Source: Fusibacter paucivorans (GTDB taxonomy: Bacteria; Bacillota; Clostridia; Peptostreptococcales; Acidaminobacteraceae). From it: a DNA stretch of 64,000 bases. Of this stretch, positions 23,196 through 31,350 are shown one piece after another (the first letter of the stretch is position 1; each line of letters starts with the position of its first letter). The notes beneath the pieces were generated by a model. That model had not been told where the DNA came from, ran no database searches, and saw nothing but the letters and a program-made list of their open reading frames with translations. The DNA is taken from assembly GCF_018390735.1 (NCBI RefSeq), contig NZ_JAHBCL010000024.1:1-64000 (forward strand), in the 5' to 3' direction. The position numbers and the translations under genes were made by a program.

Positions 23196-23224
23196 TTGCG
23201 CACATTTGCAAAATCGGATAGAAT
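23196..23224 (+). promoter_or_regulatory. Promoter of the leader peptide and ABC exporter
   Basis: TTGCGC (23196-23201) and TAGAAT (23219-23224) are spaced by exactly 17 bases. It lies about 49 bases before the leader ORF start. Confidence 0.6.
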
Positions 23225-23272
23225 TTATGTGAACGTGAGATATCGCGTTACAAAACGAAGGAGGTTATAAAG

Positions 23273-23410
23273 ATGATTAAGTTAAACTTTGCTTTTACAC
23301 AATGTAATACATCTGTGGATCATGACATTTACGCAATCAGTGCGTCCAAAATGCGTCAACCACGCCAACTTAATCTTGGAACATTTATAACCTGCGGGTA
23401 TAGGCATTGA
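23273..23410 (+). CDS. 45-residue putative leader peptide upstream of the ABC exporter
   Basis: A short frame with AAGGAGG eight bases before ATG 23273 and a promoter at 23196-23224. The product begins MIKLNFAFTQCNTSVDHD and ends TFITCGYRH; it has no membrane segment or recognisable signal peptide and two cysteines. The stop codon is 16 bases before a strong intrinsic terminator. Bases 23311-23318 inside the frame can pair with 23429-23436, the 5' arm of that terminator, so an antiterminator is possible. The layout resembles the bmrB leader of the Bacillus bmrCD exporter, where drug-stalled ribosomes allow readthrough. Alternatively it encodes a small secreted or regulatory peptide. No family match is claimed. 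Confidence 0.6.
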   Translation: MIKLNFAFTQCNTSVDHDIYAISASKMRQPRQLNLGTFITCGYRH

Positions 23411-23426
23411 TTAACAACAAATGTTT

Positions 23427-23457
23427 AACCACAGGTTGATCACCTGTGGTTTTTTTA
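23427..23457 (+). terminator. Strong terminator after the leader ORF (candidate attenuator)
   Basis: AACCACAGGT (23427-23436), loop TGATC, ACCTGTGGTT (23442-23451), with T to 23457. The stem is a perfect 10 bp. Its 5' arm can instead pair with 23311-23318 in the leader ORF (eight pairs, one G-U). Confidence 0.9.
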
Positions 23458-23492
23458 TACCTTAAATTTGATGTCGACTCAAATCGGCATAG

Positions 23493-23523
23493 AGAGGCCA
23501 CGGGTGAAGGGGTCTCTTTTTTT
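23493..23523 (+). terminator. Second terminator in the ABC exporter leader
   Basis: AGAGGCC (23493-23499) pairs with GGTCTCT (23511-23517, one G-U), followed by T to 23523. Two terminators in tandem stand between the promoter and the exporter. The remaining 23524-23796 holds no supported gene; one frame there has several stops and may be decayed coding sequence. Confidence 0.75.
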
Positions 23524-23796
23524 ATGAAAACATAATGATTTGCACACAAAGCAATTGTGGATTGATCACCTTCAAAAGCTGGACGTGTTAGTCATAAACA
23601 AGATTTATTCAACGAAATTTAGCATTGAAAATGAACAATAGGCACTTGATGCGCTGGAGCAATACTTTTAAAACTGACGGTTAAAGCCATCAGTGACATT
23701 GAAGGATTACGGCTGCTTGAGTGAATTAAATCTATCGCCAACAGCATCAACAGCGGCTTGGAGTGCTAACGGGTAAATATACAGGAGGTGACAGGC

Positions 23797-25539
23797 TTGA
23801 AAAACATCATTAAATTCATGGATGGGTATAAATTCATGTTCATTACAGCAATTTTGGCCATTGTTATCGCAACACTTATGCAATTGGCAACACCGATTAT
23901 AATAAAATATGCCGTCGATACAGTTATTGGGCATGAAGATCCAGGCAATCTAGCATTTTTTCAGCAATGGTTTGGTGCAACGATAACAGGCGTCGTACTG
24001 GCATTTATCATAACGAACTTAATTCGCGGCATCTTTCTCTTTATAAAAGGTTATTTTTCAAATGTTGCCGCAGAGGCAATCGCAAAACGTATGCGAGATG
24101 CGCTTTATGAACACATTCAGTACATGCCGTTTTCATACCATACGGGGCGGGAAACCGGCGATCTCATACAGCGCTGTACTTCTGATGTAGAGACGGTTAG
24201 ACGTTTTTTAGGTGTACAGGTTGCCGATCTCGGCAGAATCGTTTTTATGGTGGTGCTCTCCGTTGCGGTTATGTTTTCGCTAAGCGCTAAACTAACCCTT
24301 TACGCAGTGGTTTTGGTACCGGTTCTCTTTCTGTTTTCATATATCTTTTTTATTAAAGTTCAGCAGAACTTTACGAAATCAGACGAAGCTGAAGGCAGAC
24401 TGACGACTGTCTTGCAGGAAAATCTGTCAGGGGTCCGCGTTGTACGCGCTTTTGGGCGGGAACGTTATGAAATTGATAAATTTGAAACGGTTAACAGTGA
24501 ATACCGCGATACGACTTTTAAACTCATCGAACTCTTGGGCGTCTTTTGGTCATCTTCAGAAATTATGGCATTGATCCAGAGCGGTATTGTCTTAATTGTC
24601 GGTTCACAAATGGTCATGAGAGATGAAGTGACACTCGGAACACTCATCGCATTTATTACCTACGAATCAATGCTGCTTTTACCGGTGAAACAATCTGGCA
24701 GGCTGCTCAGTGAATTGGGCAAAATGACGGTTGCGGCAAAGCGTATTGACGAAGTACTCAGTCAGCCGGTTGAGACTGAAGAAACAGATGCCTTAAAACC
24801 GGCTATAAAAGGTGGGATTCGTTTTGAAAATGTTTCATTTGCTTACGAAAACGGTAAAGATGTTCTCAAGGGCTTAAACTTTGAAGTCAAAGCGGGACAA
24901 ACGCTTGGCATTCTGGGCGCAACAGGATCTGGCAAGTCGACGTTGGTGCAGCTGCTGCAAAAACTTTATGATTACAGCGGCGAGATCTATATTGATGAGA
25001 CACCACTTTCGAGAATTGATAGACATTGGATTAGAAAACACATAGGCCTTATTATTCAAGAGCCGTACCTATATGCAAAAAATGTTAAAGAGAACATCGG
25101 TATCACCGATCCATCTTATTCATTTGACGCCATACGACATGCGGCAGAACGTGCGGCGATTCATGAGAGCATTGAGGGATTTAAAGATGGTTATGAAACC
25201 ATTATCGGCGAAAAGGGCGTTTCGCTTTCCGGAGGGCAAAAACAGCGTATTGCCATCTCCAGAACGATTATTGATGAAACGAAACCTATATTGGTCTTTG
25301 ACGATTCGCTCAGTGCGGTTGATACGGAAACGGATCAAAAAATTAGAGAAGCACTGGCTGCCAGAGAGTCAGAAGCAACGACAATCATGATCAGCCATCG
25401 TTTGACGACATTGGCAAAAGCCGATGTAATCATCGTGTTGGACGAAGGTGAAATTCTGCAAATGGGAACGCATGAGACTCTAATTGCGGAAGAGGGCATG
25501 TACAAGCATATTTGGGAACGTCAGCGTGCCATCGCATAG
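23797..25539 (+). CDS. Heterodimeric ABC exporter, subunit 1 (degenerate Walker B)
   Basis: A 580-residue half-transporter: six membrane segments (about 1-300) and a nucleotide-binding domain with Walker A GATGSGKST, signature LSGGQKQR, and Walker B ILVFDDSLSA. The residue after Walker B is Asp rather than the catalytic Glu, as in the degenerate subunit of TM287/288- or BmrC-type heterodimers. TTG 23797 is chosen because AGGAGGTGA lies at 23783-23791; the GTG at 23788 is inside that ribosome site. Its partner is encoded after a 163-base gap. It is probably a multidrug or lipid exporter controlled by the leader upstream. Confidence 0.9.
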   Translation: MKNIIKFMDGYKFMFITAILAIVIATLMQLATPIIIKYAVDTVIGHEDPGNLAFFQQWFGATITGVVLAFIITNLIRGIFLFIKGYFSNVAAEAIAKRMRDALYEHIQYMPFSYHTGRETGDLIQRCTSDVETVRRFLGVQVADLGRIVFMVVLSVAVMFSLSAKLTLYAVVLVPVLFLFSYIFFIKVQQNFTKSDEAEGRLTTVLQENLSGVRVVRAFGRERYEIDKFETVNSEYRDTTFKLIELLGVFWSSSEIMALIQSGIVLIVGSQMVMRDEVTLGTLIAFITYESMLLLPVKQSGRLLSELGKMTVAAKRIDEVLSQPVETEETDALKPAIKGGIRFENVSFAYENGKDVLKGLNFEVKAGQTLGILGATGSGKSTLVQLLQKLYDYSGEIYIDETPLSRIDRHWIRKHIGLIIQEPYLYAKNVKENIGITDPSYSFDAIRHAAERAAIHESIEGFKDGYETIIGEKGVSLSGGQKQRIAISRTIIDETKPILVFDDSLSAVDTETDQKIREALAARESEATTIMISHRLTTLAKADVIIVLDEGEILQMGTHETLIAEEGMYKHIWERQRAIA

Positions 25540-25580: not shown

Positions 25581-25702
25581 TAAAAAGATAAAAAAGTTTC
25601 ATGAAAAGGCACAAAGTGATTTTTTAAGGCAAAGAGATTGCTTAAGAAGACTTTCGAGCTTAACACAGCAACTAAATTTGATTAAACAAGGAGGTGTTGA
25701 CC

Positions 25703-27538
25703 ATGGTAAAGCAAGAGACGACACAGCTTAAATATGATAAGACCATCTGGAAGACACTGTTTCAATACTTTAAATCAATGAAGCGCGACTTTGTGATATT
25801 GGCGTGCTTCATGGTAGCACTTGCGGCAATGGATATTATATTTCCACTTGTGACACAATACACCATCGACCATATCATTTTAAAAAATTGGTCAGAGGGA
25901 TTAACCATTGTAGGGATCGTCTACGCAGTTTTAGCCGTTTTATTAACGGCAATCGTCTATTTCTTCATTCGGCATGCCGGAAAGATTGAAATGGGAATGG
26001 TCTATAAAATGCGAAAGGACAGTTTTGAAAAGCTTCAAAAGCTCTCCTTTAGTTATTACGATCAGAATGCTGTGGGGTGGATGATTTCGAGAACGACGTC
26101 GGATGCCGCCAAGATTTCTGAAACAGTGGCTTGGGGACTTGTCGATCTCATCTGGGGATTGACTATGATGGTCGGCATTGCCATCGTTATGCTGATTGTC
26201 AATGTAAAACTGGCGTTAGTAACATTGGTAACCATTCCATTGCTCGCGCTTGTGAGTGTTGCTTTTGAAAAGAAGATGCTCATTGCATATCGGCATGTAA
26301 GACGAATTAATTCCAAAATAACAGGACTCTTTAATGATGGTATTGCAGGCGCTAAGACGACAAAAACATTGGTGAGAGAATCACTGAATTGTCGTGAATT
26401 TGAAACGGTTACCAGTGAGATGCGCATGGAATCCGTCCGTGCAGCGACGTTTTCATCGGGGTACTTGCCGGCAGCGCTCTTTATCTCTGCCATTGGCACT
26501 GTACTGACACTCTATTTCGGCAGCAGCGAAGTATTAAACGGGGGCATTACTTATGGAACACTGGTGCTCTTCGTTACATACGCGCGGCAATTCTTTGATC
26601 CGGTTTTGGAACTGGCGAGAATTTATACCGAAATGATTAGTGCGCAGGCCGCGGCAGAACGTGTCATGCAGTTGATCCACGAACCTGAAATGGTAAGTGA
26701 CCGTCCGGAGGTCATTCAAAAATACGGTGATCATTACCATCAAAAGCGAGAGGCGTGGGAAACGCTTCATGGTGACATGGTATTTGAAAATGTTGGGTTT
26801 AATTACAAACCCGGCGAAAGTATTTTAGAGGATTTCAATTTGGAAGTTAAGCAGGGTGAGACTATTGCACTCGTAGGTGAAACGGGTTCCGGCAAGAGCA
26901 CGATTGTGAATCTGGCATGCCGATTCTATGAACCGACATCCGGTGTCATCAAAATTGACGGCGTCGACTATCGTAAACGTTCACAGAGCTGGCTGCATGC
27001 CAATATTGGCTATGTGCTTCAGACACCGCATCTCTTTAGCGGAACAGTGATGGCCAACATTCGTTACGGGCGTCTGGACGCATCGGAAGAAGAGGTTATG
27101 GCAGCGGCCAAAATGGTCAATGCCCACGAATTTATCATTAAAATGGAGCATGGTTACCATTCACAAGTAGGTGAAGGCGGGGCCAGACTTTCTACAGGTG
27201 AGAAACAGCTTATTTCATTTGCCAGAGCGATTTTGGCAGATCCTAAAATATTCTTCTTGGATGAAGCAACTTCTTCCATTGACACGGAAACGGAAGTAAA
27301 AATTCAAGAGGCGGTTGAAAAAGTCCTTGAGAACAGGACGAGTTTTATTATTGCACATCGACTTTCAACGATTCGACAGGCGGACCGTATTCTTGTCATT
27401 GACAAAGGCCGTATTGTCGAAGCTGGAAATCATGCGGCATTGATGCAGAAACGTGGTGCCTATTATAATCTTTATACCAATCAGTATGGCGAGGCACTGC
27501 TTAACGAAAAGAAGAAACATAAGCTGCGGAGCGCTTAG
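25703..27538 (+). CDS. Heterodimeric ABC exporter, subunit 2 (canonical Walker B)
   Basis: A 611-residue half-transporter: six membrane segments (about 30-330), then an ATPase domain with Walker A GETGSGKST, Walker B IFFLDEATSS with the catalytic Glu, switch H in IAHRLST, and a degenerate signature LSTGEKQ instead of LSGGQ. That pattern complements subunit 1: one ATP site uses subunit 1 Walker B (Asp) with this degenerate signature, the other is canonical. This strongly supports a functional heterodimer. AAGGAGG lies eight bases before ATG 25703. A 49-residue ORF follows 21 bases downstream. Confidence 0.92.
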   Translation: MVKQETTQLKYDKTIWKTLFQYFKSMKRDFVILACFMVALAAMDIIFPLVTQYTIDHIILKNWSEGLTIVGIVYAVLAVLLTAIVYFFIRHAGKIEMGMVYKMRKDSFEKLQKLSFSYYDQNAVGWMISRTTSDAAKISETVAWGLVDLIWGLTMMVGIAIVMLIVNVKLALVTLVTIPLLALVSVAFEKKMLIAYRHVRRINSKITGLFNDGIAGAKTTKTLVRESLNCREFETVTSEMRMESVRAATFSSGYLPAALFISAIGTVLTLYFGSSEVLNGGITYGTLVLFVTYARQFFDPVLELARIYTEMISAQAAAERVMQLIHEPEMVSDRPEVIQKYGDHYHQKREAWETLHGDMVFENVGFNYKPGESILEDFNLEVKQGETIALVGETGSGKSTIVNLACRFYEPTSGVIKIDGVDYRKRSQSWLHANIGYVLQTPHLFSGTVMANIRYGRLDASEEEVMAAAKMVNAHEFIIKMEHGYHSQVGEGGARLSTGEKQLISFARAILADPKIFFLDEATSSIDTETEVKIQEAVEKVLENRTSFIIAHRLSTIRQADRILVIDKGRIVEAGNHAALMQKRGAYYNLYTNQYGEALLNEKKKHKLRSA

Positions 27539-29717: not shown

Positions 29718-29759
29718 CACTATTAGCAATTAAGTCTTAGACTTTACAAATGCATACTG

Positions 29760-29853
29760 TTATCAAGAGTGGCTGAGAGAATAGGCTCTATGACGCCCGG
29801 CAACCTGCATTTGCGTGGTGCCAATTCCTACATTTCGATGAAATGAGAGATAA
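29760..29853 (+). ncRNA. SAM-I (S-box) riboswitch upstream of aspartokinase
   Basis: The S-box core is clear: P1 strands TTATC (29760-29764) and GATAA (29849-29853), AAGAGTGGCTGAGAGA, the GCCCGGCAACC element, GGTGCCAATTCC and GAGAGATAA. A terminator follows at once, so SAM binding should stop transcription of lysC. Confidence 0.95.
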
Positions 29854-29861
29854 ACGGATCC

Positions 29862-31186: not shown

Positions 31187-31235
31187 TAATCATTAAATCA
31201 AGGCGATTATTAATCGCAGACAATTATATAACGAC

Positions 31236-31338
31236 TTATTAAGAGTGGCTGAGAGACTGGCTCTATGAAGCCCGGCAACCTACATCTCATTTGATGTGTG
31301 GTGCTAATTCCTGCATTTCCTATGAAATGAAAGATAAG
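31236..31338 (+). ncRNA. SAM-I (S-box) riboswitch upstream of metF-metH
   Basis: P1 strands CTTATT (31236-31241) and GATAAG (31333-31338) enclose AAGAGTGGCTGAGAGA, GAAGCCCGGCAACC, GGTGCTAATTCC and GAAAGATAAG, all conserved S-box elements. A terminator lies 12 bases downstream. The hairpin GCGATTATTAATCGC (31204-31218) just upstream has no T tract. Confidence 0.95.
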
Positions 31339-31350
31339 ATTTTGAGAGAG

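Follow-up and report, generated by a model that had tools for sequence, protein, structure and literature searches.

A leader upstream of a heterodimeric ABC exporter in Fusibacter paucivorans is probably a ribosome-sensing attenuator with its Shine-Dalgarno sequence as anti-antiterminator

Several bacterial resistance genes are preceded by a leader that couples translation of a small ORF to transcription. The bmrB-bmrCD locus of Bacillus subtilis, taken here from its published description, resembles the F. paucivorans locus in its heterodimeric exporter, its leader ORF and its set of terminator, antiterminator and anti-antiterminator. Induction of bmrCD needs translation, and bmrB stays OFF when its start is removed (PMC4191407). 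The three structures are predicted within nt 60-162 of the bmrB ORF and the terminator lies inside the ORF (PMC4191407), whereas the first terminator of the locus studied here (T1) follows the stop codon and its proposed anti-antiterminator strand is the Shine-Dalgarno sequence (SD). In Listeria, the Lmo1651-1652 proteins are called BmrCD homologues (PMC7828314), and a review reports that the leader Rli59, which lies ahead of lmo1652, responds to lincomycin, erythromycin and chloramphenicol by relief of termination, noting that details are missing (PMC8079631). The leaders of the ARE-ABCF genes vmlR, lmo0919 and cplR come close to the mechanism proposed below in that an anti-antiterminator fails to form when a ribosome sits at a very short uORF (PMC9226507, PMC10201436, PMC8079631), but their uORFs have three codons and the SD of vmlR is described as single-stranded before a hairpin. 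A figure legend names anti-Shine-Dalgarno elements in the cplR and lmo0919 leaders (PMC10201436), and it is conceivable that an SD-based anti-antiterminator operates there as well. The leader ORF of Escherichia coli toiL-topAI likewise senses several antibiotic classes, but it acts by freeing a downstream RBS and through Rho-dependent termination (PMC12121999). In the part of the open PMC literature covered by the searches, no account was found in which a leader's SD pairs with the end of its own ORF, apart from that one legend on anti-SD elements elsewhere.

The sequence under study, referred to as the window, is a stretch of 64,000 nt from F. paucivorans (GCF_018390735.1, contig NZ_JAHBCL010000024.1, positions 1-64,000, forward strand), a genome that falls in one family with Fusibacter tunisiensis. 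The features of the leader and exporter are collected in Table 1. A first-pass annotation of the window had listed an SD, a 45-codon ORF, a terminator 16 nt after its stop, a second terminator (T2) and an exporter, and direct reading finds every one of them in place. It had also listed a promoter; hexamers resembling one are indeed seen by eye, are present in the sister genome and have similar counterparts in some other family members, but the -35 is poor and the program scan does not list the site.

Table 1. Coordinates of the leader and exporter features in the window
Feature	Position	Strand	Remarks
Putative promoter, TTGCGC-N17-TAGAAT	23196..23224	+	by eye
SD of the leader ORF, AAGGAGG	23258..23264	+	read directly; strongly kept in the 16-leader alignment
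Proposed anti-antiterminator strand, SD end and spacer, AGGTTATAAA	23262..23271	+	partner 23384-23393
Leader ORF, 45 codons, MIKLNFAFTQCNTSVDHDIYAISASKMRQPRQLNLGTFITCGYRH	23273..23410	+	read directly
Strand of the earlier-proposed antiterminator, ATCTGTGG	23311..23318	+	not conserved
Predicted antiterminator (AT) strand near the ORF end, TTTATAACCTGCGG	23384..23397	+	partner: SD/spacer or, by 23389-23397, 23429-23437
Terminator T1	23427..23456	+	perfect stem 23427-23451 of 10 bp, loop of 5, then T run
T1 loop end and 3' arm	23440..23452	+	can pair with the T2 5' side, 23495-23507
Terminator T2, imperfect stem and T run	23491..23523	+	by reading; weaker than T1; undetected by the terminator scan
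Exporter subunit A gene	23797..25539	+	TTG start; GTG at 23788 possible
Exporter subunit B gene	25694..27538	+	

The downstream genes encode two half-transporters, one bringing a degenerate and the other a canonical ATP site, which by motifs read by eye and by homology makes them a heterodimeric multidrug ABC exporter. Subunit A carries FDDSLSAVD, with Asp replacing the catalytic Glu, and subunit B carries FLDEATSSID together with a degenerate signature, LSTGE (all by eye). Against chains of solved structure the top scores of the exporter are to P-glycoprotein-type proteins; the bacterial chains matched are Sav1866, TmrB, TM_0288 and YheI/BmrC for subunit A (297-275 bits) and TM_0288, TmrA and YheH/BmrD for subunit B (364-306 bits). 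A homologue of subunit A at E<=1e-100 is present in 20 of the 60 other genomes searched.

The leader matches no Rfam family at gathering scores, the sole listed matches in the window being two SAM riboswitches (29757-29856 and 31233-31340), and 12 related loci also gave no Rfam leader match at those scores. Its peptide has no match in NCBIfam and only two chance-level matches in plasmid records (E 6 and 8). In the window (23323-23345) and in near-family leaders a stretch, ATCAGTGCG, is conserved, which by eye could form a small hairpin; it may act as a pause hairpin or encode part of the peptide, and it occurs twice in leader L008. T1 alone is no rarer than chance, since the terminator scan found 2 terminator-like sites where 2.2 +/- 1.4 are expected in these 2 kb. 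The arrangement as a whole goes beyond chance because it recurs in relatives.

In a first alignment of 16 family leaders, that of the window among them, three strands are conserved: the SD with the spacer, the AT strand near the ORF end and the 5' arm of T1 (CCACAGGTT), the presumed partner of the antiterminator. The SD end and spacer pair with AT in the window through 10 perfect pairs (AGGTTATAAA/TTTATAACCT, 23262-23271 / 23384-23393). Over the 16 leaders 89.4% of the alignment cells of this helix (SD:AT) are paired, 18 cells carry two-sided changes and the covariation is 0.386, against 31-39% and 0.055-0.153 when the partner is slid along. In a second set of 13 leaders (8 from outside the family, 3 common to the first set), nearly all picked for having the helix, 99.0% of the cells are paired with a covariation of 0.545, against at most 0.138 for slid partners. 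The alternative helix between AT and the T1 5' arm (AT:T1) has one C.A mismatch in the window (AACCTGCGG/CCACAGGTT, 23389-23397 / 23429-23437). It is paired in 80.6% of the cells with a covariation of 0.196 (slid controls at most 38% and 0.109), its weak spots being one inner position unpaired in 9 of the 16 leaders and the outermost position in 13. Comparison of leaders thus supports both helices and designates 23384-23397 as the predicted conserved antiterminator strand, whose other partner appears to be the leader's own SD.

The first-pass annotation had placed the antiterminator elsewhere, within the ORF at 23311-23318, and had suggested that a ribosome stalled early would free this strand for the T1 5' arm. 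The pairing does exist (ATCTGTGG with CCACAGGT, 23429-23436), with 8 bp including one G-U and a duplex energy of -11.8 kcal/mol, and with the SD masked it still forms in folding of the window (P 0.51). In the sister genome, however, the strand reads ATCCGTGG and one pairing base is lost. The alignment of leaders that had been suggested as a check puts it at chance level: in the 13 of 16 aligned leaders with letters at this place, 48.1% of the cells are paired against 48.0% in shuffles, with no covariation. These two results rule out 23311-23318 as a conserved element, and a switch built on this local antiterminator is improbable.

The reading favored here is that the leader is, with good probability, a ribosome-sensing transcription attenuator in which the SD of the leader ORF itself acts as anti-antiterminator. 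In the OFF state, a bare SD would pair with AT, T1 would form and transcription would stop; alternatively, a ribosome finishing the ORF would cover AT, with the same outcome. In the ON state, a translation inhibitor would hold a ribosome on the SD or the first codons, so that the SD is covered while AT stays free and can capture the T1 5' arm ahead of synthesis of the 3' arm. Displaced from its partner, the 3' arm of T1 could then capture the 5' arm of T2, both terminators would fail and the exporter would be transcribed. The main unlocking state is taken to be a ribosome parked on the SD, and without translation the leader would remain OFF. As expected of an attenuator of the bmrB kind, an ORF with an SD precedes the regulated gene in silico, an intrinsic terminator is accompanied, as far as pairing goes, by a mutually exclusive antiterminator, and the candidate anti-antiterminator helix (SD:AT) overlaps the region of the leader ORF.

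Folding of 23230-23441, i.e. before the T1 3' arm is made, with an assumed start point and assumed ribosome footprints, agrees with part of this scheme. With a bare SD the probability of SD:AT is 0.75 and then 0.98, and it falls to 0 when the SD is masked; the T1 5' arm then pairs with AT at 0.37 or with 23311-23318 at 0.51, the latter pairing competing at 0.35-0.51. The probability of AT:T1 is 0.30 without a ribosome, 0.37-0.51 with an early ribosome, 0.41 with one near codon 14, 0.64 with one near codon 28, and 0 with a ribosome at the stop. Because ribosomes in mid-ORF also raise it, start-site ribosomes are not the only ones to which the folding model responds. Once T1 is complete it wins at equilibrium in all states tested (P 0.91-0.96), so the switch would have to be kinetic, with the decision taken before the T1 3' arm emerges. 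The folding with and without a ribosome footprint that the first-pass annotation had proposed does not sharply separate the ribosome states before the T1 3' arm is made. A ribosome held early in the ORF is a plausible ON signal in silico, as that annotation had supposed.

The comparison was widened to 95 exporter loci having 200 nt or more of upstream sequence, pooled from two sources, with a few loci present twice; the named-genome search contributed the best 80 exporter loci of a longer list. An SD, an ORF and a terminator were found in 62 of the 95, the other 33 being without such a leader by the detector used. The SD helix is better than in shuffles at p<0.05 in 40 of the 62 leaders; 41 pass p<=0.1 with AT lying 8-31 nt before the stop, and 21 miss these criteria. 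Removal of five near-duplicates left 36 leaders, still with some close pairs in the set. The helix is also present in two Halanaerobiales loci (L066 and L070), which stand outside the 36 because their AT lies 6 and 45 nt before the stop. By eye, no such leader is seen just upstream of the exporter relatives on plasmid records (L126-L128).

In the 36 leaders AT ends 11-29 nt before the stop, and in 29 of them 11-15 nt before it, a distance at which a terminating ribosome would cover or border AT. In 36/36 leaders the fit of the SD to its own AT exceeds the median fit for the others', and none of 10000 permutations was as good; this swap test and the AT position are flattered, because the leaders were chosen on the SD helix and AT position, and shared ancestry was not removed from the tests. 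AT fits its own T1 better than the others' in 27/36, again with 0/10000 permutations as good.

An alternative is an arrest-peptide attenuator, whose ribosome would be stalled under one drug by particular codons or by the peptide being made, in the manner of Erm-type leaders. Stalling that depends on the peptide is known from tlrB and hflXr (PMC6851288, PMC6310831), and by eye an SA[SP] stretch (ISAS/ISAP-like) is common to many near-family leaders. The peptides of the 36 selected leaders are, however, largely unrelated, those outside the near family looking so, and by eye the window peptide is without an R/K-X-R/K motif. Counted from the stop, the AT motif falls in different reading phases (19, 2 and 15 leaders), which argues that the RNA and not the peptide is kept. 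Non-synonymous codon changes also outnumber synonymous ones in 6 of the 7 leader pairs compared, the exception being the window against the sister species (4 synonymous, 2 non-synonymous). An arrest peptide is therefore unlikely. A ligand-binding riboswitch or a protein-controlled terminator, unrelated to translation, would equally show a structured leader with a terminator. It is highly improbable given the missing Rfam match, the use of the SD and of a stop-proximal strand in the pairing, and the reading frames, of which just 2 of the 72 others stay open between the start and AT (openness of the own frame was a condition of selection). A leader-ORF transcription attenuator is the most likely identity of this element, and the earlier proposal that one stands before the heterodimeric exporter, its peptide varying among relatives, is supported in silico.

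The loop end and 3' arm of T1 can in turn pair with the 5' side of T2, over 13 bp and -20.8 kcal/mol in the window. Across the 32 leaders with a detected T2 (4 of the 36 were dropped, including L103, which had a T2 in an earlier run, and the T2s of L100 and L120 are probably not real), the average energy is -14.9 kcal/mol for own partners and -10.7 kcal/mol for swapped ones, with 0/10000 permutations as good. At most 10 of 200 shuffles are as good in 25/32 leaders, against 23/35 in the earlier run with poor windows. By eye, the helix extends beyond the T1 stem into the T1 loop in L002, L054 and L111, an extension that mere copying of T1 would not give. Comparison thus supports the T1:T2 complementarity, and since the T1 3' arm can pair with the T2 5' arm, the opening of T1 may disarm T2; such a cascade is put forward as a hypothesis.

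Two sequence-structure models were used to search for further leaders. Model R1 runs from AT to T1 and leaves the SD out. On 41 family genomes it returned 23 places, 8 of them outside its training set. In 7 of these 8, AT forms a helix of 9-14 bp with the SD, spacer or start region (at most 9 of 300 shuffles as good); one of the seven (L036) is almost identical to a training leader, and recovery of the SD helix is thus a partly independent check. The eighth has no ORF that could be found and looks like a plain terminator. Four of the seven precede other genes, namely an MFS transporter, a GNAT acetyltransferase and two Tet-type ribosomal protection proteins; the latter two were read only in part and score below the curated cut-off, and in their leaders most of the helix falls within the spacer and start codon.

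Model R2, from SD to T1, was built from the 13 leaders and applied to 393 genomes from the order and 391 from the class. At E<=1e-5 it finds 38 places in 34 order genomes and 36 places in 26 class genomes, by a hand count that includes the training places and with two genomes (G000 and G037) in both sets. On a Listeria record it gave 11 matches at E<=5, the best at 0.002, and six of them examined by eye were without the SD-ORF-AT arrangement; the tally at E<=0.01 is therefore inflated, and E<=1e-5 is used for claims. By these searches and the exporter loci, leaders of the predicted kind occur in other Clostridia and in two Halanaerobiales genomes.

The genes downstream of the leader were classified for the 58 loci of the best R2 matches. 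Subunit A of the exporter follows in 35 of them (34 by BLAST, one by place). MFS-like genes follow in 5 (one by Pfam, four by eye), an EamA transporter in 1 (Pfam), known or guessed acetyltransferases in 3 (one checked), genes for small proteins of one look in 8 (tandem in at least 3) and proteins of about 90 aa in 3, the last 3 loci being unclear or false. In L189-L194, with look-alikes L195 and L196, the leader precedes one to three genes of about 55-63 aa with the look MSxxNFSLKxSSFNINI, in tandem in L189, L191 and L192 and about 1 kb away in L190. Of the small proteins behind leaders, three were compared with Pfam (two without a match, one with two weak matches, E ~0.06) and two with NCBIfam (no match); those of 55-63 aa are possibly a new family of translation-stress proteins. 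In L197-L199, L207 and L208 the leader precedes a small ORF of about 82-92 aa, followed in L198, L199, L207 and L208 by a Schlafen AlbA_2-like gene and then by a larger protein (by Pfam for L198, by eye for the rest). Places beyond the 58 include a locus of this Schlafen kind and L205 (136-1336), where an RsgA-like ribosome GTPase lies behind a leader carrying AGGTATGTTTT / AAAACATACCT.

A Listeria exporter locus (L239) carries Rfam rli59 (RF01484, 226 bits); it was found via its exporter and not via R2. Like the window leader, Rli59 combines a small ORF, a strand at the SD end and spacer that pairs near the ORF end and a heterodimeric exporter, and in its Rfam structure GGAAUGG at the SD end pairs with CCAUUUC near the ORF end. 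Unlike Rli59, the window leader has no match to the RF01484 model, and R2 does not detect Rli59. By analogy of architecture, the drug response of Rli59 may be taken as the best functional support for the proposed switch. The first-pass annotation had regarded the window leader as an independent case, a view contradicted by the same arrangement in other Clostridia and in Rli59, so that the window leader is not isolated.

More tentatively, and with the balance leaning slightly against it, these leaders may belong to a broad, unnamed class of attenuators that sense only the presence of a ribosome on the leader start site, independently of the peptide and of the chemistry of the drug. Its core would be a strand-exchange chain (SD - AT - T1 5' - T1 3' - T2 5' - T2 3') with one register OFF, in which a one-step shift disables two terminators, and it would govern a translation-stress regulon of pumps, ribosome protection proteins, the RsgA GTPase and small-protein families. 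If true, this would provide a concrete switch for exporter leaders, including Rli59, and would explain how leaders with unrelated peptides respond to unrelated drugs. Its signature would be an SD and spacer that can pair with a strand shortly ahead of the leader stop and that are mimicked in the terminator, and this signature could locate translation-stress genes, some of them without assigned function, in poorly studied anaerobes.
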